Of a DNA stretch of 23,544 nucleotides, positions 1,928 to 16,474 are shown in pieces. The position numbers were made by a program, and so were the translations under genes. Numbering within the stretch: the stretch's first letter is position 1; each line of letters starts with the position of its first letter. Location of the stretch: positions 1 through 23,544 of the IMG/VR virus record IMGVR_UViG_3300008261_001983; one strand, written 5' to 3'. Source of the DNA: a virus. The notes under the pieces were generated by a model. It saw only the letters and a list, made by a program, of their open reading frames with translations. It was not told where the DNA came from and did not search any database.

Positions 1928-3719
1928 TTTTAATGACCTTATCGACATGCTCGATGGTGAGGAGTTTGATGAAAAACCAGTCGATCTTAGAACGTTTGTT
2001 AGAAGTCCAGAATACCTTGGGCTTCCAGAACTTTCCGACTACCAGTACACGCTTATTGAAAAAAGTTCGCAGATCTACAAAGAGTCAACCCTCGTCAAGT
2101 TATTTGGAGAACAAGAAGGAAAAATAAGATTTAAGCAGACCGCTAACGAAGTTGTTGCTCAGCTTGGAAAAGGTTCTGGAAAAGATTATTGTTCGACAAT
2201 TGCAGTAGCATACATTGTATATCTTTTACTATGCCTCAAAGATCCAGCAACATATTATGGAAAACCTCCAGGAGATAGCATTGACATTATTAACATTGCT
2301 ATTAACTCTCAGCAGGCAAGCAACGTATTCTTTAAGGGATTTAAAACACGTATCGATAAGTCACCTTGGTTCGCAGGTAAGTATAACGATAAGGCTTCAG
2401 AAGTTAAATTTGATAAAGCCATTACAGTACACTCAGGTCACTCAGAGCGTGAGGCTTGGGAAGGATACAACGTAATTGTTGTTATCCTCGATGAGATTTC
2501 TGGCTTTGCAATAGACAATACAACTGGCCACGAGCAAGCAAAGACAGGTGCAGCTATATATGACATGTACCGTGCATCAGTAGACTCTCGCTTTCCAGAC
2601 TTCGGCAAGGTTATATTGCTGTCATTTCCTAGATATAAGAATGATTATATTCAACAAAGATACAATGCGGTTGTGGCAGAAAAAGAAACTGTTATTCGTG
2701 ATCATAAGTTTAAAATGGATGAAGATCTTCCAGATGGAACAGAGGGAAATGAGTTTAGCGTAGAGTGGGAAGAAGATCATATTGTTTCATATAAGATTCC
2801 AAAAGTATACGCTCTTAAGCGTCCCACTTGGGAGATAAACCCAGTTAGAACGATTGATGATTTTAAGGTAGCTTTTTTTACAAACCCACTAGATGCATTA
2901 TCTAGATTTGCTTGCATGCCACCAGATGCTGTCGATGCATTCTTTAAATCAAGAGAAAAGGTGGAGAAGGCTTTTAATAAAGGACATCTTGCGGTAGATA
3001 AATTTGGCAGACTTGAAGATTGGTTTATTCCAGATCCAGACAAGGAATATTTCTTACACGTAGACCTAGCACAAAAGCATGACCATTGTGCAGTTGCAAT
3101 GGGGCACGTAAACAAATGGGTTAATATTAAAGTTACAGATAGCTATTCTCAACCAGCACCCTTGGTTGAAATTGATGCTGTTAGATTCTGGACCCCTACA
3201 GCAGATAAGTCCGTAGACTTTACAGAAGTAAAAGATTATATATTATCATTAAGAACACGTGGGTTTAAGATAAAGGTTTGTACTTTTGACAGATGGAACT
3301 CTCATGATATGATGCAACAACTAAAACAATACGGCATCAATACAGAGATTCTATCTGTCGCTAAAAAACATTATGACGATATGGCAATGATTGTGGCTGA
3401 AGAAAGACTATCTGGGCCCCACATACAGTTGCTTATAGATGAATTACTTCAGCTTAAAATAATGAGAGATAGAGTTGACCACCCACGAAAAGGCTCTAAA
3501 GACTTGGCGGATGCAGTTTGTGGAGCTATTTACAATGCTATTAGTAGAAGTAAATTTGATACAAGCGAAGAGATCAATGTGCATACATATGAATCTATGA
3601 GCTATGACAACGATTTTGGAACAAAAGATGACGGAGAAACTAGCTCATATAATATGATTAGGGCTCCAAGAATGCCAGAAAACTTAAGAGACGCAATGGA
3701 CAGGATGATGATAATATGA
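1917..3719 (+). CDS. terL: Terminase large subunit (packaging ATPase-nuclease)
   Basis: This 600-aa protein pumps DNA into the prohead and cuts the concatemer. The ATPase domain has a Walker A-like GKGSGKD (residues 84-90), a Walker B VIVVILDE (186-193) with the catalytic Glu, and a coupling-type SFPR (236-239). The C-terminal RNase H-like nuclease domain shows HVDLA (D383), TFDRW (D458) and KDLADAV (D529/D532), the expected acidic triad. Length and motif order are normal. It overlaps the small subunit gene at the 5' end and the next gene by ATGA at the 3' end. The next genes are not portal or capsid genes, an unusual order for tailed phages. Confidence 0.95.
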   Translation: MSFDFNDLIDMLDGEEFDEKPVDLRTFVRSPEYLGLPELSDYQYTLIEKSSQIYKESTLVKLFGEQEGKIRFKQTANEVVAQLGKGSGKDYCSTIAVAYIVYLLLCLKDPATYYGKPPGDSIDIINIAINSQQASNVFFKGFKTRIDKSPWFAGKYNDKASEVKFDKAITVHSGHSEREAWEGYNVIVVILDEISGFAIDNTTGHEQAKTGAAIYDMYRASVDSRFPDFGKVILLSFPRYKNDYIQQRYNAVVAEKETVIRDHKFKMDEDLPDGTEGNEFSVEWEEDHIVSYKIPKVYALKRPTWEINPVRTIDDFKVAFFTNPLDALSRFACMPPDAVDAFFKSREKVEKAFNKGHLAVDKFGRLEDWFIPDPDKEYFLHVDLAQKHDHCAVAMGHVNKWVNIKVTDSYSQPAPLVEIDAVRFWTPTADKSVDFTEVKDYILSLRTRGFKIKVCTFDRWNSHDMMQQLKQYGINTEILSVAKKHYDDMAMIVAEERLSGPHIQLLIDELLQLKIMRDRVDHPRKGSKDLADAVCGAIYNAISRSKFDTSEEINVHTYESMSYDNDFGTKDDGETSSYNMIRAPRMPENLRDAMDRMMII

Positions 3720-3946
3720 GTACTTATCAAGAGAAAGCTAAAGAATGTAAGTGTTGTGGAAAGCATGTTCCTCTTCCAACGGTATTAAAGGAATACAACG
3801 GATTAGTTTTGTGCCCAACAACTTTCAGCAATGTAATTGAATATAAAAGAATCTGGAAGGCTGCTGGACATAGACCTATGGGTAATATTAGAAAGCATTT
3901 TTCAGAATATGTACAGCAAATAGTTGAAGGTTCAGTTAATGATTAA
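3716..3946 (+). CDS. Small zinc-binding-type protein of unknown function
   Basis: The 76-aa product begins with a CKCCGKH cluster (residues 11-17) and has a further Cys in LVLCPTTFSN, giving a likely one-zinc knuckle at the N-terminus. The rest is basic with an aromatic-rich helix (IEYKRIWKAAG) and a helix ending KHFSEYVQQIV. It is coupled to terL by an ATGA overlap, so it is probably made together with the packaging motor and could be an accessory packaging factor or an HNH-like remnant; no HNH catalytic pattern is visible. I do not recognise the family. Confidence 0.75.
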   Translation: MSTYQEKAKECKCCGKHVPLPTVLKEYNGLVLCPTTFSNVIEYKRIWKAAGHRPMGNIRKHFSEYVQQIVEGSVND

Positions 3947-4031
3947 GAATATTTTTTACAGCTTATACGTATACTTATACAGAAAAAAGAGTAAAAAAAG
4001 AATTAGAAAAAATGGAGATTATATTTACTAA
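3939..4031 (+). CDS. 30-aa lysine-rich mini-protein (possible coupling ORF)
   Basis: An ATG lies inside the stop region of the preceding zinc-protein gene and the frame ends in a TAATG overlap with the SGNH-like gene. The product is 30 aa: a short aromatic helix (YSLYVYLYR) then a cluster of Lys/Arg. Both overlaps fit the chain of coupled genes here, which is the main reason to call it. It could be merely a translational bridge carrying ribosomes across what would otherwise be an 84-base gap, or not expressed at all. Confidence 0.45.
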   Translation: MIKNIFYSLYVYLYRKKSKKRIRKNGDYIY

Positions 4032-5035
4032 TGAATCTAAAAAATAGATTTAGAGACGCCCTATTAGGAAAAGCCGATACCTTTTATAGCAGCAGTCAAA
4101 GAAATAATTTTCTATATCCTAGTCTTCAAAATCTTTCTCAGAAGCATGCATATAAGCCTAACCTATGGGGCCAAGCTAAAGAAGAATACTATCTAGATAA
4201 ATTAAAAAATAAAATTTTCTATAAGAACCATCCAGACTACAGCCTTTTTAGCCAAGAAAACTATTCTATAAATAGAAAATTATACAGAGGTAAAAATTTT
4301 ATTCAGGGTAGTCCTGCCGAGATTTTAGTTGCAGGATGCTCACAAACATGGGGGACTGGGCTTCCAGACTCCCTAATCTGGCCAAACATTTTAAAAGAAA
4401 AGTTGAACGCAAAAGATGTAGATAATTTAGGGCAGCCAGGTAAGTCGGTAAGAGGAATTGTTGAAATAGTTTTTGCTTACTTTAAAGAAATTGGTCACCC
4501 AGAAAAATTATTTATTCTTTTGCCACCACTCTGGAGATTTAGGCTGCCAAGAACTCCAGAAGTTATGGTATCTAAAGAAACACATAACAATGACATATTA
4601 ATTGACGGCAGCGTTAATCCCGAACTGCATGCTAAATTTTATAAATTGCCTTTAATCTTACAAGAAATTATCACAGAAGAAATTGCTTATGATCAATCTT
4701 TAATGTCACTAAGACTACTTGAGCAATATTGCAATCAGTCTAATATATTTTTAAGATATGGATTTTGGGACCCAGATGAAAGTTTATTCTTCAAAGAGAT
4801 TGCTAATCAAAATGAATACTATAAAGGCTATACTTCTATAGATTCTAGGTGGTTTAGCGAAAAAACTTTTAGCGGTGACCACCCTGATTGTCATCAAGAT
4901 CTCGCAAATAACACAGGCTATAGGATGTTTTGGGAAATAGCAAACGATTACGATCAACACAAAAACCCTCACATAGGTGCACACGCAAGCATTCATATCG
5001 CAGAAAAATTTTATGAGGAGACTTTAAATGGATAA
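4031..5035 (+). CDS. SGNH/GDSL-like hydrolase or acyltransferase, paralogue A
   Basis: This 334-aa protein has a block-I-like AGCSQTWGTGLP (residues 101-112), with the usual GDS changed to GCS but the nucleophile Ser retained (S104). A block-II-like NLGQPG follows at 132-137, and the C-terminal PHIGAHASIHIAEK carries histidines (H318, H322) where SGNH enzymes have the catalytic DxxH. Block III is poorly conserved (ILLPPLWR), so activity is not assured. SGNH proteins add or remove O-acetyl and other acyl groups, commonly on sugars. About 95 N-terminal residues precede the fold. The gene is coupled upstream by TAATG and overlaps its paralogue by 8 bases; both precede a carbamoyltransferase. Confidence 0.75.
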   Translation: MNLKNRFRDALLGKADTFYSSSQRNNFLYPSLQNLSQKHAYKPNLWGQAKEEYYLDKLKNKIFYKNHPDYSLFSQENYSINRKLYRGKNFIQGSPAEILVAGCSQTWGTGLPDSLIWPNILKEKLNAKDVDNLGQPGKSVRGIVEIVFAYFKEIGHPEKLFILLPPLWRFRLPRTPEVMVSKETHNNDILIDGSVNPELHAKFYKLPLILQEIITEEIAYDQSLMSLRLLEQYCNQSNIFLRYGFWDPDESLFFKEIANQNEYYKGYTSIDSRWFSEKTFSGDHPDCHQDLANNTGYRMFWEIANDYDQHKNPHIGAHASIHIAEKFYEETLNG

Positions 5036-6026
5036 TCAAGGCGGTAAAAAGTATATTGATTGGGATATCAAGGATGGCAAAAGAACAGCCGAAGCTATTT
5101 CTTCAAACAAATTAGAGAATCAAATATTTGTTAATAGAGCTCCAACAGTTAGCAAGTTGTTTAAAGAATGGAATAAAGAGGGTATTAACTACTCTTTAAA
5201 TAACTATGGATTCAGAGACAAGGATTTTTTTGAAGCAGCAGACTTACTGATAAACGGATGCTCTCAAACATGGGGCACATCCTTGCCAAAAGAATATAGA
5301 TTTTCAGATATTGTAGAAGATAATTTTTTGGGAACAGTTCATAATATTGCTTATGAGGGCAACTCAGTAGGATCTGTTGTTCGTTCAACATTTGCATATA
5401 TAAAGGAGTTTGGAAACCCAAAATATATTTATTGTATGCTGCCACCATTTGAAAGAATTGAGTTTATTCCAGACCCAAACACAATAACTAAATGGGACTG
5501 GGCAGAATATTATAAAAAGTTTAAGAAAACAGAAACAGAAGATGTTGATTTTTCTCCATTGCAGATTGCTACTGTTGATGTATTTACACCTATATACGCA
5601 AAAGCACCATACGCAATAGAAGATGTAATGAATCCGCAATCAGCATATTTTATAAATATGCAAATGCTTTTAATGCTTGAGCAATATTGCGAGAATGCAG
5701 GTATTAAATTTATGTGGTCCTGTTGGAGTAACTCATATAGCGTAATGGATTTTATAGCAGATTTACAAAAAAATAATAAGGATCACCAAAGCTATTTTCA
5801 TATACCAGTTTGGAGTTGGTATTTGGATAAAAATAAAAAGGATATTTTAGATGCTTCGGGTTGCCATAAGGATTTAGAGTCTGAGGACGTGGTGTTTTTT
5901 AATCATGCCAAAGATATTGGAAAGGTTGCAACCAGCACACCACACTGGGGTTCACACAGGAACATACACGTAGCGGAAAAAGTTTTATCTGAAATGAAAA
6001 ATAGATGGGGTGGGGTAGTAAAATGA
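5028..6026 (+). CDS. SGNH/GDSL-like hydrolase or acyltransferase, paralogue B
   Basis: This 332-aa protein shares with its upstream neighbour the block I (NGCSQTWGTSLP, Ser79), a following EGNSVGS block, a (F)AYxKExGxPxxxxxxLPP segment and the C-terminal HWGSHRNIHVAEK with H310/H314. The shared idiosyncratic GCSQTWG box shows that the two arose by duplication. An SLNNYGFRDKDF stretch before the fold is also typical of environmental SGNH proteins. The stop overlaps the carbamoyltransferase start (ATGA). Two divergent copies suggest a heterodimer or two substrates. The reaction is unknown; sugar de-/acylation is the family-based guess. Confidence 0.75.
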   Translation: MDNQGGKKYIDWDIKDGKRTAEAISSNKLENQIFVNRAPTVSKLFKEWNKEGINYSLNNYGFRDKDFFEAADLLINGCSQTWGTSLPKEYRFSDIVEDNFLGTVHNIAYEGNSVGSVVRSTFAYIKEFGNPKYIYCMLPPFERIEFIPDPNTITKWDWAEYYKKFKKTETEDVDFSPLQIATVDVFTPIYAKAPYAIEDVMNPQSAYFINMQMLLMLEQYCENAGIKFMWSCWSNSYSVMDFIADLQKNNKDHQSYFHIPVWSWYLDKNKKDILDASGCHKDLESEDVVFFNHAKDIGKVATSTPHWGSHRNIHVAEKVLSEMKNRWGGVVK

Positions 6027-7516
6027 TTATTTTAGGAGTTAATGAAACTTCTCACGATGCTTCTGTATCTTTAATTAAAGATGGAGAGATACTCTTTGCG
6101 GGCCATGCAGAAAGATACAGTAAAGAAAAAAATGATTGGTACGTTAATGACAGCCTTGTTAAAGACGCACTGTCGTATGGCTCACCTGATGCTATAGCCT
6201 ACTATGAGAAACCCCTTCTAAAGGCCTCCAGGCTATTTCTAAAGGGCGGTGCTGGAGACTGGAGACCAAGATTCAACCTGCCAGGTGTTCCAAGAAAATC
6301 TTTTAGCCACCATTACTCACATGCCTGTGCTGGCTATTATACTAGCAAGTTTACAGATGCAGTAATTGTAGTATTGGATGCTATTGGTGAATATAACACA
6401 TCAACAATCTGGGTCGGAGAAGGCGAAAAGATTAAAATGGTTCATCAGGACAACTATCCGTTTAGCTTTGGGTTATTTTATTCAGCATTTACAAAATTTT
6501 TAGGATTAATGCCAAACCAAGAAGAGTACATAATGATGGGGATGGCTGCATATGGAAATCCAGATAGATATTTTGATCAGGTAAATGAATATTTCCCTAA
6601 ATACAATAAGCAAAAATATAATTTTCATACTGGGATAACAGATTTTGACTGGGGTTATGTGCCATGCTTTGCAGGACAAGAAGGCACTGGATATATAGGC
6701 CAGTGGTTTGAGCAAAGAAAATTTGATTTAGCTGCAGCAGTTCAAAAGGTATATGAAAAAAGACTTATTGAGTATATGCGTTACGCTAAAGTAATTACAA
6801 GAAAAAGTAATTTAGTTTTTATGGGAGGATGTGCTTTAAATAGTAAGGCTAACACATCATTGTGGGATATATTTAAGGACGTCTGGATTATGCCAAATCC
6901 AGGAGATGCTGGTAGCTCGCTGGGTGCAGCTGCAGCATTATATGGAAAGCATTTAGAGTGGAAGACTCCATATTTAGGATACGATATGGGAGGAGATTAC
7001 CCAGTACAACAAATAGTTGATAGCATATTAAAAGATGGAATTGTTGCGGTTGCTTCAGGAAGAGCGGAGTACGGCCCAAGAGCTTTGGGAAACAGAAGTA
7101 TCCTTGCAGACCCAAGAGATCCTAATATTAAAGATAAAGTAAATCTAATTAAACAAAGAGAGTTGTTCCGTCCGTTTGCCCCAGTAGTTATGGAAGAGTG
7201 TGCATCTAAATGGTTTGACATGGACTTCGCTTCTCCATATATGCAGTACACGGTTAAGTGCTTAAAGCCAGACTTAATCCCTTCCGTTGTTCACGAAGAC
7301 GGAACATCAAGAGTTCAAACAGTCAATAGGGATCAGCATAGAGGTTTATGGAGAGTATTAAATAAGTTTTATTTACAAACTGGTGTTCCAATTTTATTAA
7401 ATACTAGTTTAAACATAAAGGGCCAACCCTTACTAAATGATCATCAAGATGCTATTGACTGGCAGGCACATTATGGATATAATATACTAACAGGCAACAA
7501 TAGCTTAGTTGGTTAA
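6023..7516 (+). CDS. NodU/CmcH-family O-carbamoyltransferase
   Basis: This 497-aa enzyme is expected to transfer carbamoyl from carbamoyl phosphate through a carbamoyl-adenylate to a hydroxyl group. The N-terminal Kae1-like domain shows NETSHDAS (residues 7-14), HAERYSKEK and the metal-binding HHYSHA (96-101); GGCALN (about 268-273) and NPGDAGSSLGAA follow. The C-terminal YrdC-like domain has GRAEYGPRALGNRS (about 345-358) and RPFAPVV. All hallmark motifs are intact. I chose the ATG at 6023, overlapping the previous stop as ATGA and followed directly by the IILGVN strand, over an in-frame start six codons earlier. The last seven codons and the stop lie inside a tRNA gene. Acceptors could be a sugar or a hydroxymethylated base. 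Confidence 0.92.
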   Translation: MIILGVNETSHDASVSLIKDGEILFAGHAERYSKEKNDWYVNDSLVKDALSYGSPDAIAYYEKPLLKASRLFLKGGAGDWRPRFNLPGVPRKSFSHHYSHACAGYYTSKFTDAVIVVLDAIGEYNTSTIWVGEGEKIKMVHQDNYPFSFGLFYSAFTKFLGLMPNQEEYIMMGMAAYGNPDRYFDQVNEYFPKYNKQKYNFHTGITDFDWGYVPCFAGQEGTGYIGQWFEQRKFDLAAAVQKVYEKRLIEYMRYAKVITRKSNLVFMGGCALNSKANTSLWDIFKDVWIMPNPGDAGSSLGAAAALYGKHLEWKTPYLGYDMGGDYPVQQIVDSILKDGIVAVASGRAEYGPRALGNRSILADPRDPNIKDKVNLIKQRELFRPFAPVVMEECASKWFDMDFASPYMQYTVKCLKPDLIPSVVHEDGTSRVQTVNRDQHRGLWRVLNKFYLQTGVPILLNTSLNIKGQPLLNDHQDAIDWQAHYGYNILTGNNSLVG

Positions 7517-7567
7517 AGCCCCGAACTCATAATTCGGTAATCGTAGGTTCAAGTCCTACTTGTTGCA
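7494..7567 (+). tRNA. tRNA-Met (CAT) or tRNA-Ile2 (CAT)
   Basis: A full cloverleaf fits 74 bases: acceptor GCAACAA/TTGTTGC, D-stem GCTT/AAGC with GG in the loop, anticodon arm CCGAA-CTCATAA-TTCGG, variable TAATC and T-arm GTAGG-TTCAAGT-CCTAC, discriminator A, no encoded CCA. The anticodon stem lacks the GGG/CCC pairs of initiator tRNA, so it is elongator Met or, if the C is modified to lysidine, Ile2. Its first 23 bases overlap the end of the carbamoyltransferase gene. Confidence 0.9.
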
Positions 7568-7578
7568 CAGGAGGAAAA

Positions 7579-7866
7579 ATGGAACCTAACGATATGGATT
7601 ACTATATTGAGATCGGTGCTATAGATATTAGCGGAGTCGATAAAGACGGAGAAATATTATTTTCTGTTACCGAAAAAGCAAAGGATCTGGCACCTGATTT
7701 GTGGGAAGCCCATGTAAAATTTATAGACCAGGCATTGGTTGATTTATATAATAAAAACTTAATAAGTGTTGAATATAATGAAAACCTAGAGGCTATTATT
7801 TCTTACACTCCAGAAGCAGAAAATCTGCTAAAAGACATAGGACTAAGTCACAACGATGGGGATTAG
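7579..7866 (+). CDS. 95-aa acidic protein of unknown function
   Basis: The gene has a strong AGGAGG Shine-Dalgarno right after the upstream tRNA and starts at ATG 7579. The acidic protein alternates beta-like (YYIEIGAIDISGVDKDG) and helical segments (LWEAHVKFIDQALVDLYNKNL), ending with another short strand and helix. No motif is recognised. It sits between two tRNA genes, and its final codons and TAG lie within the acceptor/D region of tRNA-Asn. Confidence 0.75.
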   Translation: MEPNDMDYYIEIGAIDISGVDKDGEILFSVTEKAKDLAPDLWEAHVKFIDQALVDLYNKNLISVEYNENLEAIISYTPEAENLLKDIGLSHNDGD

Positions 7867-7932
7867 CTCAGATGGTAGAGCGTCGAACTGTTAATTCGAA
7901 TGTCGCAGGATCGATGCCTGCATCCCCAGCCA
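7857..7932 (+). tRNA. tRNA-Asn (GTT), CCA encoded
   Basis: The cloverleaf is TGGGGAT/ATCCCCA acceptor, GCTC/GAGC D-stem, TCGAA-CTGTTAA-TTCGA anticodon arm (GTT), variable ATGTC and T-arm GCAGG-ATCGATG-CCTGC. The mature body is 7857-7929 with discriminator G, followed by a genomically encoded CCA (7930-7932). The T-loop begins ATC instead of the usual TTC. The first ten bases overlap the end of the preceding CDS. Confidence 0.9.
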
Positions 7933-7933
7933 T

Positions 7934-7978
7934 ACCCTTGTAGCTCAGCGGAAGAGCTATTCGCTTGAAAGGGGAATA
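7934..7978 (+). pseudogene. 5' half of a tRNA fused to the hsp20 ribosome-binding site
   Basis: One base after the CCA of tRNA-Asn begins ACCCTTG-TA, a D-arm GCTC-AGCGGAA-GAGC, then T, ATTCG and a loop CTTGAAA that reads as an anticodon arm (TGA). After the loop the expected CGAAT, variable region, T-arm and 3' acceptor are missing; instead GGGGAATAAA leads to the hsp20 ATG. TATTC (958-962 of this thousand) can pair with GAATA (974-978), which puts the hsp20 Shine-Dalgarno GGGG largely in an 11-base loop. It is either a tRNA remnant or a tRNA-like mRNA leader. Confidence 0.6.
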
Positions 7979-10420: not shown

Positions 10421-12745
10421 TTGACTAGAAAGTTACAGTATTTTTTAACCAGCCTTTTTATAATCGGCTGGCTCTTTCTTTTTGGACCAAGCAATGCACA
10501 TGCTGAAGAAGTTACTGTTCAGGTAACACCAGCAAACCCATCTTCAGATACCGCCACAGCAACCACTCCTGTTACAGTTGAGATAGTTGCAAATAAAATA
10601 GAGGCGGCAGAAACAACGCTACAGGCGGCAGCTCAAACACAGGCAAATACGATCATATCTACAATTCAAGCAAATGTCCCAAACACAGACACTCAAACTG
10701 CTACTCAAATTGCTACAACTCAAGAGCCAATTGCAACTGCGGTTGCAGAGGCTACAGTCAAAGTTCAGGATGCTAACAATGCAATACAGTCTGCTGAGAC
10801 TGCAGTAGCAGTAGCAGAAACAGCCCAAGCAGCAGTTGAATCACAAACTGCAGTAGTTGCTACAGCGACAACAAATCTAAATAATGCTCAAACAAATTTA
10901 AATACAGTAACTCAACAGGTTGAGTCTCAGACTGCTGTAGTTGCAACAGACACTACAAACCTTGCTACAGCACAGGCTGCTGCGGATGCTTCAGCCGTTA
11001 CAACTACAACTAATGGAATTCAGGTAACAACTTACGCATCTCCTGGTGGGCAGCAGCCACCAATGCCAGCAGAAAATGCAACACCACTTTCAACTACAAC
11101 AGTTCCTTATATTGCTCACCAATTTGGAAGCGGACAGGTATTTAACTCTGGCAGAGTAGACAATGTAATTGTTAAGTTTGAAGGAAAGATTACCGTTCCA
11201 GAAGAAGCAGTATCAGTAAGGTATGCAATTCATTCAGATGATGGCGCAAAGATGTATGTTGATGGACAACTTGCAATTAATGAATGGATTGATAAGGGCG
11301 GGGGGTGGAGTCAATATTCCCCAACCTATAACACAACTACAGATAAACAACAGGACTTTACTATTTGGTACTATGAAAATGGTGGAGGATCAGCCGTCAT
11401 ACTTGGCTGGGCGATAACAAGAGAAAACGGAACTGGCTACTTTACTACCCCAGTCAATGAAGCATTTGCAACTACAACAGTGACAAAAGATCCAGTATTA
11501 GTTGCTGCAGTTGCTACTGCACAGACAACACTTAATAATGATACTGCAGTTCTTAATACTCTTACTACACAAAAGACTGCAGCAGAAGCAGTAGTTGTGG
11601 ATAAAACAGAAGTCAAAGCAGCTGAAGTTGCAACATTAAATCAGCTTACAGAAACTGCTACAGTAGCAGTTCAAACAGCAGACACCCTTGCTAATACAGC
11701 AACAACAAAAGTAAATGAAGCAGTAACTGCAATGACAAATGCAGCACAGGTTACAGTTAATTATTATGCAGAGCAACAAGCAGCAGCACAAGCAGAAGCA
11801 GATGCAAAAGCAGCAGCGGAAGCTGCAGCAAAAGCAGAAGCAGAAGCCAAGGCAGCAGCGGAAGCTGCAGCAAAAGCAGAAGCAGAAGCTAAAGCCGCAG
11901 AAGAAGCGGCAGCTAAGGCTGAAGCAGACCGTGTAGCCGCAGAAGAAGCCGCTGCTAAAGCAGAGGCTGATCGTATAGCAGCAGAAGAAGCAGCAGCGCA
12001 AGCAGAACAAGAAGCTAAAGAACAAGCTGAAGCAGATGCAAAAGCGGAAGCAGATAGATTAGAAGCAGAGGCTGAAGCGGCAGCACAAGCAGAGGCAGAT
12101 GCTAAGGCTGAAGCAGAAGCAAAGGCTCAAGAAGAAGCAGATGCTAAAGCAGAAGCAGAAGCTAAAGCACAAGAAGCGGCAGATGCAAAAGCGGAAGCTG
12201 AAGCAAAAGCTGCAGAATTAGAAGCGGCAAAGGCGGAAGAAGAAGCATTAAAGAAAGCAGCAGAAGAAGGCAAACTAACTGAAGAGCAAAAAGAAGTTGT
12301 AGTAGAAAAACTTATAGAAAATCTTGCTCCAGGAGAATCTATTTCAGCAGAAGAAATTAAAGCAGCAGGAGTTTCTTATTCAGATCTGCCACCATCAACA
12401 CCAGTTGAAGTTCGTACAGATGAAAATGGAAACGCTCTTATAATTACTGCAGCTGTCGCTGCACAAGTTGAGCTTGTGCAAAATCCAGCAGCTTTGGTAG
12501 AAGAATTATTTACTAATCCAGCAGCGGCAATTGCAGCTCTTGGAAGCATTGGTGCAGATATGACTGAAGAAGAAAGAGAAGAAGCAACAGATATGGTTGT
12601 CGCTACAGTTGTTGCAGCAGGTGCTGCTATTAATGCAGTGGGAGCAGCAACAGGAGGAGCCACTGGAGGTGGCACAGGCGGAGGAAGTTCTGGTGGAGGC
12701 TCAGGGGCCAATTCACCAGGTCAAGGAGGAAGAAGAAAATGGTAA
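10421..12745 (+). CDS. Exported PA14-domain, Ala/Glu coiled-coil surface protein
   Basis: This 774-aa protein starts at TTG, eight bases after AGGAG. Residues 1-28 form a signal peptide: basic start, hydrophobic core (FLTSLFIIGWLFLF) and an AHA cleavage site before EE. A Gln/Thr/Ala-rich helical region follows, then a PA14-like beta-barrel (about 205-343) with VRYAIHSDDGAKMYVDG and WYYENGG, a carbohydrate-binding fold. Residues about 447-615 are a long A/E/K coiled coil built of 14-residue repeats, then a compact helical domain, and the end is Gly/Ser-rich with terminal RRKW. Signal peptides are rare on virion proteins; it may be a host-surface adhesin or exclusion factor, or a fibre protein with an atypical leader. 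It overlaps the next gene by 7 bases. Confidence 0.8.
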   Translation: MTRKLQYFLTSLFIIGWLFLFGPSNAHAEEVTVQVTPANPSSDTATATTPVTVEIVANKIEAAETTLQAAAQTQANTIISTIQANVPNTDTQTATQIATTQEPIATAVAEATVKVQDANNAIQSAETAVAVAETAQAAVESQTAVVATATTNLNNAQTNLNTVTQQVESQTAVVATDTTNLATAQAAADASAVTTTTNGIQVTTYASPGGQQPPMPAENATPLSTTTVPYIAHQFGSGQVFNSGRVDNVIVKFEGKITVPEEAVSVRYAIHSDDGAKMYVDGQLAINEWIDKGGGWSQYSPTYNTTTDKQQDFTIWYYENGGGSAVILGWAITRENGTGYFTTPVNEAFATTTVTKDPVLVAAVATAQTTLNNDTAVLNTLTTQKTAAEAVVVDKTEVKAAEVATLNQLTETATVAVQTADTLANTATTKVNEAVTAMTNAAQVTVNYYAEQQAAAQAEADAKAAAEAAAKAEAEAKAAAEAAAKAEAEAKAAEEAAAKAEADRVAAEEAAAKAEADRIAAEEAAAQAEQEAKEQAEADAKAEADRLEAEAEAAAQAEADAKAEAEAKAQEEADAKAEAEAKAQEAADAKAEAEAKAAELEAAKAEEEALKKAAEEGKLTEEQKEVVVEKLIENLAPGESISAEEIKAAGVSYSDLPPSTPVEVRTDENGNALIITAAVAAQVELVQNPAALVEELFTNPAAAIAALGSIGADMTEEEREEATDMVVATVVAAGAAINAVGAATGGATGGGTGGGSSGGGSGANSPGQGGRRKW
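11810..11893 (+). repeat. Tandem 42-bp coding repeat in the coiled coil
   Basis: Two adjacent 42-base units (11810-11851 and 11852-11893) are identical except for two synonymous changes near their ends, and encode 14 residues each (AAAEAAAKAEAEAK). Weaker, diverged copies continue to about 12220. The high identity suggests recent slippage or recombination, in frame. Confidence 0.85.
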
Positions 12746-15948: not shown

Positions 15949-16182
15949 GTGCTAGTTTTGACGCCTAAAGGAGTTGATGTCTTTATTGAAAGATTCAGCT
16001 CTAAAGATAGAGAATCCTATTGGGATAACTATAATTTAATTATATGGAAAAAAAATCCAACGGGGTTTTCTAATAAAAAGGGATTATTTAAAAACAATTC
16101 TTGGGGAATTGCAGAGAATTTATCTATAAGTACAGACGGAACATGGAAGATGTCGGACAAATATGTCAAATATTTTAAATGA
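15949..16182 (+). CDS. 77-aa protein of unknown function
   Basis: The gene starts at GTG with AGGGA six bases upstream and overlaps whiB by 20 bases. The product begins MLVLTPKGVDVFIERF, then SYWDNYNLIIWKKNPTGF and ends in strands with DGTWKMSDKYVKYF. The aromatic-rich, basic composition suggests a small beta fold, and the opening resembles the start of small phage proteins with no assigned role. It is co-transcribed with WhiB and possibly related to its regulation. Confidence 0.6.
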   Translation: MLVLTPKGVDVFIERFSSKDRESYWDNYNLIIWKKNPTGFSNKKGLFKNNSWGIAENLSISTDGTWKMSDKYVKYFK

Positions 16183-16474
16183 TCTAGGTCTAGAGGAAAG
16201 TGATTTTAAGTGGTTTGATATTGCTATTTGTCGTGGTATGGACACAAATTTATTTTACGACAAGTATGAATCAGATCCAATCATAGCCTCAAGTATTGAT
16301 GAAGCTTGTTTGAGTTGTCCAGTTTCTAAAGATTGTTTCGAGTCTGGAACCATAAACAATGATCACGGTGTATGGGGCGGCATATATCTAAACTCTGGCG
16401 AGATAGACAAGGTAAAGAATATTCACAAAACAAAAGAGTTTTGGCAAAAAATAAAAACAAAAAATGGTATTTAA
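16163..16474 (+). CDS. WhiB-family iron-sulfur transcription regulator
   Basis: The 103-aa protein has the WhiB cysteine pattern C23 ... C49-x2-C52-x5-C58, which ligates a [4Fe-4S] cluster, followed by GVWGG (69-73), the sigma-A-binding turn. The C-terminal basic stretch (KVKNIHKTKEFWQKIKTK) takes the place of the DNA-binding hook. WhiB-like proteins bind the host sigma factor region 4 and redirect transcription; phage WhiB proteins such as the mycobacteriophage ones can inhibit host WhiB2 and block superinfection. This gene is the best host marker in the window. Confidence 0.93.
   Translation: MSNILNDLGLEESDFKWFDIAICRGMDTNLFYDKYESDPIIASSIDEACLSCPVSKDCFESGTINNDHGVWGGIYLNSGEIDKVKNIHKTKEFWQKIKTKNGI

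Follow-up and report, generated by a model that had tools for sequence, protein, structure and literature searches.

Positions 1 to 23,544 of the IMG/VR virus record IMGVR_UViG_3300008261_001983 (hereafter the window, 23.5 kb) contain, at 3939-7516, a cassette of four plus-strand genes that overlap end to start. Direct reading confirmed this arrangement, which had been described in an earlier prediction made from the sequence alone (the original prediction), and identified the four products as a peptide of 30 amino acids (aa), two paralogous proteins of predicted SGNH fold, designated S1 and S2, and an O-carbamoyltransferase, designated CT. The open reading frame (ORF) of the peptide (3939-4031; MIKNIFYSLYVYLYRKKSKKRIRKNGDYIY) specifies a Lys/Arg-rich sequence with the C-terminus Tyr-Ile-Tyr, and the last base of its TAA is the first base of the ATG of S1 (TAATG). 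S1 (4031-5035; 334 aa) and S2 (5028-6026; 332 aa) overlap by 8 nucleotides (nt), and the TGA of S2 overlaps the start of CT (6023-7516; 497 aa) at position 6023 (ATGA). The original prediction took these overlaps to suggest that the products would be made in a fixed ratio.

The gene order is conserved in IMG/VR relatives. A comparison of three clades (the window, L004 and L010), in all of which the peptide is kept, revealed far fewer nonsynonymous than synonymous changes in each of the four genes, and in a 76-aa ORF immediately upstream, indicating purifying selection. For the 30-aa ORF, the proportions of nonsynonymous (pN) and synonymous (pS) changes were 0.079-0.179 and 0.648-0.776, respectively.

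The SGNH pair and the carbamoyltransferase

S1 and S2 are 28% identical over 312 aligned residues. Both contain the box GCSQTWG and end in HxGxHxxIHxAEK (HIGAHASIHIAEK and HWGSHRNIHVAEK), the shared features originally noticed in the pair and confirmed here by direct reading. The box, first considered unusual, proved to be ordinary for the clan, because residue 78 is Cys in 50 of 55 relatives, and Asp in 4, and because NGCS is shared with the family DUF6071 (see below). The proposed SGNH fold of both paralogues was borne out by AlphaFold2 models of S1 (predicted local distance difference test, 87.0; predicted template-modelling score, 0.90; alignment of 48) and S2 (83.3 and 0.88, respectively; alignment of 55 relatives), as well as by their structural matches. 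With VIA-align 2, the crocagin enzyme CgnD (8a2n_A) was the first match both of S1 (Z 15.2 over 208 residues; next SGNH entry, 13.8) and of S2 (Z 15.5 over 215 residues; next SGNH entry, 12.6), and TesA was matched at Z 13.7 and 12.6, respectively. Foldseek placed TesA first for S2 (E 5.8e-5), CgnD being one of 11 matches at E ≤ 0.001, and the best match of the modelled SGNH protein in a viral structure library was an uncharacterised protein of an uncultured phage (template-modelling score 0.75, 27% identity).

The putative catalytic residues are Ser104, Asp306 and His314 in S1, and Ser79, Asp296 and His306 in S2, the Ser being the candidate nucleophile. In the alignment of S2 relatives, Ser79 is present in 54 of 55 sequences, the other having a gap, and Asp296, His306, Arg143 and Cys221 are each present in all 55; the Gly of block II, assigned from its position in the sequence, corresponds to Gly111 (49/55; Ala in 4, Ser in 2). 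In place of the block III Asn of the SGNH oxyanion hole, 53 of the 55 sequences have Pro (position 139), and the invariant Arg143 follows four residues on. The O-acetyltransferase PatB1 is described as using an Arg at the oxyanion position, and SASA enzymes also as being without that Asn (PMC9487903). S1 and S2 are thus, as modelled, SGNH-fold proteins with a non-canonical active site; given the nearly invariant Ser, Asp and His, the retained Arg143 and the Pro at the block III position, enzymes of this type should be active and possess an unusual oxyanion hole. They share their fold and Ser-Asp-His set with the SGNH hydrolase superfamily, including TesA, carbohydrate esterases and PatB1-type O-acetyltransferases, but differ from it in this Asn-to-Pro exchange with its downstream Arg, in the GCS box and in the length of the Asp-His spacer (10 residues in S2 and 8 in S1, the usual number being three).

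We rejected a recent tandem duplication as the origin of the pair, because S1 and S2 fall in separate clades of the SGNH tree (a quick tree with several long branches and only Shimodaira-Hasegawa-like approximate likelihood ratio support); they are old paralogues. Searches of Pfam, PHROG and NCBIfam assigned neither protein to a family, the sole hit being a weak, unrelated match of S2 to Mtf2. Likewise, tblastn with S1, S2 and three other SGNH relatives retrieved no homologue from a collection of annotated phage isolates, which agrees, at that level of detection, with the original view that the pair plus a carbamoyltransferase is not a standard phage module. The GCSQTWG pattern had 21 matches in bacterial and archaeal genomes, none of which was confirmed as a member of the SGNH family.

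The identity of CT as a carbamoyltransferase of the NodU/TobZ type was upheld by both Pfam domains (Carbam_trans_N, PF02543, E 7e-40; Carbam_trans_C, PF16861, E 1.1e-53), by phrog_1601, 'Nol-like carbamoyltransferase' (E 9e-104), and by sequence matches to GdmN and TobZ in the PDB. The protein contains the family motifs HHxSH, GPRALGNRS, RPFAP, SRVQ and NTS, which are invariant across 18 relatives. It differs from the NodU/TobZ/GdmN family in being shorter than aligned relatives (497 versus 566-600 aa) and in its pairing with SGNH proteins and a micropeptide.

Recurrence of the module in phages and bacteria

Two sets of loci were compared, one collected from CT (CT-first; 52 loci left at 90% identity from the best 80 among at least 595 relatives) and one from the SGNH proteins (SGNH-first; 31 representatives hand-picked from 70 viral loci). 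An SGNH relative occurred in 39 of the 52 CT-first loci, at no more than 200 nt in 34. Of the 13 loci lacking an SGNH match, only L120, L138 and L149 extend for about 5 kb in both directions; the others end early on at least one side. CT was present in 29 of the 31 SGNH-first loci, and the SGNH and CT ORFs touch or overlap in 17 of these 29 (first-start coordinates). We also examined 11 large phage records, which contain one CT each and 25 SGNH genes, 13 of them at no more than 200 nt from CT. Such a neighbour was found in 10 of the 11 records, as compared with a mean of 0.085 and a maximum of 3 records upon random placement (20,000 trials). The SGNH-CT cassette is a recurrent phage module, and the predicted co-occurrence of the two families elsewhere therefore holds.

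Inheritance in the three clades is mosaic: S1 and S2 group the window with L004, CT groups it with L010, and the terminase groups L004 with L010. The window CT is 66-94% identical to 17 relatives, whereas identity to S2 is mostly 20-31% among the SGNH proteins. Because S1 and S2 vary and travel together, whereas CT is conserved and exchanges alone, it is probably the SGNH proteins that determine the final product, with CT as a common catalyst.

A few phage loci deserve separate mention. In L120 (6440-7099), a 219-aa gene with a GSSD box overlaps a CT that lacks an SGNH-profile match, and may be a degenerate SGNH partner. Weak SGNH-profile matches lie beside CT in L095 (2884-3624; pelagiphage Mosig) and L096 (3906-4586 and 4762-5643; marine virus AG-345-D19), and none was found beside CT in the six other phage loci examined with them.

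The cellular CTs nearest to that of the window (42-47% identity) adjoin a DUF6071 gene in L181, L182, L184 and L185, and the same pairing occurs in Mesorhizobium huakuii and Streptomyces goshikiensis, on plasmids. DUF6071 (PF19547) is an SGNH-like family that hhalign aligns to the phage SGNH family over 82 columns (probability 97.7, E 1.4e-12); its members share with the phage proteins the NGCSxT box, the invariant Arg after the block III position and a gene adjoining a CT, here one with 45-50% identity to the window CT. In contrast with the phage cassettes, these loci usually contain a single such gene and the micropeptide was not found in them; S1 and S2, for their part, do not match the DUF6071 Pfam model above its cut-off. 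The family is rare, occurring in 1 of 396 and 4 of 398 genomes of two phyla, with three of these five being seeds. The two new genes (L273 and L274) both adjoin CT, although they are not independent because they resemble the seed loci L185 and L181. The 3.7-kb locus with the S. parvus copy (L268) contains no CT, and an SGNH-profile match lies within 2 kb of CT in 11 of 80 cellular CT loci. The SGNH-CT partnership thus exists outside phages, and the micropeptide was seen only in phages. The contig L182, filed as a Pacearchaeota metagenome-assembled genome, carries short, overlapping, virus-like genes with its DUF6071-CT pair, giving the impression that it is possibly a phage contig in the bin.

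A micropeptide family beside the enzyme genes

Judging from sequence, the 30-aa ORF is a member of a family of Lys/Arg-rich micropeptides of 25-35 aa that end in [F/Y]-[I/T/V]-Y followed by the stop. A profile built from four copies found more copies directly 5' of SGNH or CT genes. A pattern scan requiring [FYW][IVTL]Y at the very end and at least five Lys or Arg among the last 22 residues was satisfied by 78 of the 472 small ORFs that lie near the modules on the same strand, compared with 2 of 4514 elsewhere on that strand and 1 of 8147 on the opposite one. Upon dropping the C-terminal criterion, 63 of 70 Lys/Arg-rich small ORFs whose stop lies -3 to 30 nt ahead of an SGNH or CT start still end in Tyr, versus 49 of 736 other Lys/Arg-rich small ORFs. 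The 109-kb relative G001, searched on both strands, yields a single fit, which is homologous to the window peptide.

In 71 distinct copies, Phe (44), Tyr (26) or Trp (1) stands third from the end and Ile (56), Thr (11), Val (3) or Leu (1) second from the end; the stop is TAA (56), TGA (12) or TAG (3), with Phe, Tyr, Ile and Thr codons varying synonymously. Because the codons and all three stops vary, and pN is far below pS, this comparison indicates that the constraint acts on the protein sequence of the peptide. One copy, in L106 (the same phage as L045), ends in Gly-Phe-Met-Tyr; with Met allowed, a copy is present in 44 of the 52 CT-first and 28 of the 31 SGNH-first loci, some of which have two. 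The peptide is also kept in 8 of 14 CT loci without an SGNH gene. The original prediction included this ORF among its four genes and assigned it no role, although its association with CT is as tight as that of the SGNH genes.

Interpretation of the cassette and other features of the window

The nearest parallel that we found is the biosynthesis of crocagin. Its precursor, CgnA, has 21 aa: a leader of 18 aa with many basic residues, followed by Ile-Tyr-Trp as the C-terminal core. The basic residues close to this core matter for processing, and the enzymes include the dioxygenase CgnC, the hydrolase CgnD, which releases the core, and the carbamoyltransferase CgnI (PMC10070186). The phage peptides are likewise short and Lys/Arg-rich, with a three-residue, aromatic-containing C-terminal end, so that they have the basic stretch and fixed C-terminal tripeptide of a crocagin-type precursor with a different core motif. 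The cassette also combines a carbamoyltransferase with an SGNH-fold enzyme whose best structural match is CgnD, and 2-oxoglutarate (2OG)-Fe(II) oxygenases occur in the same phage genomes: all 11 large relatives contain PF13640 oxygenases, and eight of them have 8-13 matches each. Unlike crocagin, the peptides end in [F/Y]-[I/T/V]-Y rather than Ile-Tyr-Trp, the genes are phage-borne, often with two or more SGNH genes, and the oxygenases lie outside the window cassette (two in the window, none within the cassette). Tandem runs of PF13640 genes were observed in G001 (61362-66684; seven in 5.3 kb) and other large relatives.

Because the peptide is genetically tied to CT and the SGNH enzymes, and CgnD is their best fold match, we propose, with somewhat less than even confidence and by analogy, that this is a phage-borne cassette resembling those for ribosomally synthesized and post-translationally modified peptides (RiPPs), which would tailor the C-terminus of the peptide. 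The Lys/Arg-rich part would serve as a leader docking the peptide on the enzymes. CT would form a carbamoyl-adenylate from carbamoyl phosphate and ATP, and pass the carbamoyl moiety to a hydroxyl of the C-terminal end, either the Tyr phenol or one installed by a 2OG-Fe(II) oxygenase. That end might be cut or re-esterified by the SGNH enzymes through an acyl-enzyme, in the manner of CgnD, which frees the crocagin core. A more speculative extension, to which we give somewhat less credence, is a phage natural-product cassette in which CT carbamoylates the free [F/Y]-[I/T/V]-Y end, fast-diversifying SGNH enzymes release or cap it, and the resulting small carbamoylated peptides target the host, or competing phages, in the course of infection; CT would be the shared catalyst, and swaps of SGNH genes and peptide would change the product.

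Several observations weigh against a peptide substrate. No fit was found in 8 of the 52 CT-first and 3 of the 31 SGNH-first loci, and 7 of 10 SGNH genes located away from CT have no peptide beside them (three have a copy). In the window, the peptide is directly 5' of S1 only, and not of S2 or CT. Of 89 CT loci from cells and isolates, 88 showed no such peptide next to CT; the exception, L184, has two fits, both in GC-rich overlapping frames that look like chance. Also, the C-terminal pattern was defined after examples from part of the same loci had been inspected. The match to CgnD is one of fold, at 8-13% identity, with the next SGNH entries at Z 12.6 (S2) and 13.8 (S1), and a profile search did not list CgnD. 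Our comparison covers the precursor, SGNH enzyme, carbamoyltransferase and dioxygenase of the crocagin pathway, which also has the peptide-binding proteins CgnB and CgnE. That CgnD is reported as a slow leader protease, and that other crocagin-like clusters are reported with a glycosyltransferase instead of a carbamoyltransferase (PMC10070186), argues against our proposal too, but not strongly either way.

The main rival, also offered in the original prediction, is glycan tailoring, which has real weight even though we consider it less likely: CT would O-carbamoylate a sugar, the SGNH proteins would attach O-acyl groups to that glycan of the virion or host, or take them off, and the peptide would be an accessory anchoring the complex or attaching it to a membrane. 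Classical carbamoyltransferases of the NodU/TobZ type act on sugar hydroxyls. In a scan of 7 kb on either side of CT in the 11 large phage records (142 of 157 retained ORFs used, 15 short ones being excluded by hand), PF11397 (N-acetylglucosamine, GlcNAc; 5/142) and GT61 (4/142) were among the commonest families, together with 2OG oxygenases (11/142). Further, capsule-type glycosyltransferase and nucleotidyltransferase genes are found at other loci, in cyanophages, CTs of another branch share the stretch between tail-fibre genes with heptose and sugar-epimerase genes, and carbohydrate esters are common targets of SGNH enzymes (PMC9487903). However, the glycosyltransferase families are inconstant, with PF11397 in only 5 of the 11 records, and no glycosyltransferase was recognised in the scanned part of the window; nor would this alternative explain why a peptide with a fixed C-terminus stands beside CT even without SGNH genes. 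PF11397, a GlcNAc glycosyltransferase family acting on hydroxyproline of Skp1, occurs together with PF13640 oxygenases in G003, G004, G005, G007 and G008, a hint of a glycosylated hydroxylated protein.

It is less probable still that the micropeptide is a regulatory or structural partner of CT and the SGNH enzymes (an activator, membrane anchor or assembly factor) instead of their substrate. Its hydrophobic-aromatic first half and basic second half would suit contact with a membrane or a nucleic acid, and it precedes either enzyme (CT in 29 and SGNH in 18 of 48 cases in the CT-first set); yet constraint is sharpest at the final three residues with their free C-terminus, as expected of a modified or recognised end, with which a C-terminal binding motif would still be compatible. 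That the small ORF is simply a translational coupler handing ribosomes to the next start is very improbable. In favour of this explanation, the last base of the peptide stop begins the next ORF in 29 of 47 cases of the CT-first set and in 22 of 28 of the SGNH-first set. Conservation at the amino-acid level with synonymous change, the variety of stop codons, gaps that reach tens of nt and the location of some copies 3' of a gene (for instance, in L087) all argue against it. The least credible of these alternatives is hypermodification of DNA bases, with CT carbamoylating a hydroxymethylated base. A phage-associated 5-hydroxymethylcytosine (5hmC) carbamoyltransferase has been published (PMC8670742), and sub-threshold Tet_JBP matches occur in 9 of 12 relative records, but CT is only 25% identical to that enzyme, the oxygenases with Tet_JBP signal fit PF13640 better and no record has Tet_JBP above the cut-off (0/12). 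Thymidylate synthase/dCMP hydroxymethylase, the partner family that would make the hydroxymethylated base, was found in none of the 12 records, and neither was a C5 methyltransferase; 10 of these records exceed 100 kb, completeness not being established. The tailoring of DNA bases offered in the original prediction is, consequently, not supported. We also considered tRNA modification, given that tRNAs flank the module, but regard it as improbable, since these tRNAs fit ordinary AT-rich arrays of phage tRNAs.

If tailoring of the peptide is correct, double-stranded DNA phages would make and modify a ribosomal peptide with crocagin-type enzymes, and the 'Nol-like carbamoyltransferase', which many phage genome annotations list but for which no substrate is known, would acquire a chemical role and a substrate candidate named down to three residues. 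Should the peptide prove not to be the substrate, a phage family of 25-35 aa whose C-terminus is sharply fixed, which is coupled to two enzyme families and which does not figure in the Pfam and PHROG matches of the window genes, would still be new material. Literature searches returned nothing on DUF6071, nothing naming phage carbamoyltransferases and nothing joining phage, RiPP and carbamoyltransferase, all weak negatives since most subscription journals were outside their coverage. A paper on ocean RiPPs and phages treats host RiPPs, its main text mentioning neither carbamoyl nor SGNH (PMC11118758).

Upstream of the cassette lie a terminase gene and, 3' of it in this phage lineage, the 76-aa ORF (3716-3946, plus strand), which overlaps the 30-aa ORF by 8 nt (ATGATTAA). 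Its Cys-containing product belongs to a family found in 18 of the 31 representative loci, where it goes with the terminase lineage. Downstream, a tRNA-Met(CAT) gene identified by ARAGORN (7494-7568, plus strand) overlaps the last 23 nt of CT; overlaps of 10-23 nt between this tRNA and the 3' end of CT were observed in the window, L001, L004, L010, L042, L043, L045 and L059. The tRNA array at 7857-7978 differs between near-identical phages, with Met, Asn and Arg in L001, a truncated Arg in the window and a truncated Asn in L003, which may reflect a deletion or an assembly switch between similar tRNA genes. A small Cys-containing ORF at 16163-16474 presumably resembles WhiB, which would point to an actinobacterial host. 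Finally, positions 10421-12745 encode a 774-aa protein with a signal-peptide-like start and a long, Ala/Lys/Glu-rich coiled stretch, which is probably secreted or fibrous.

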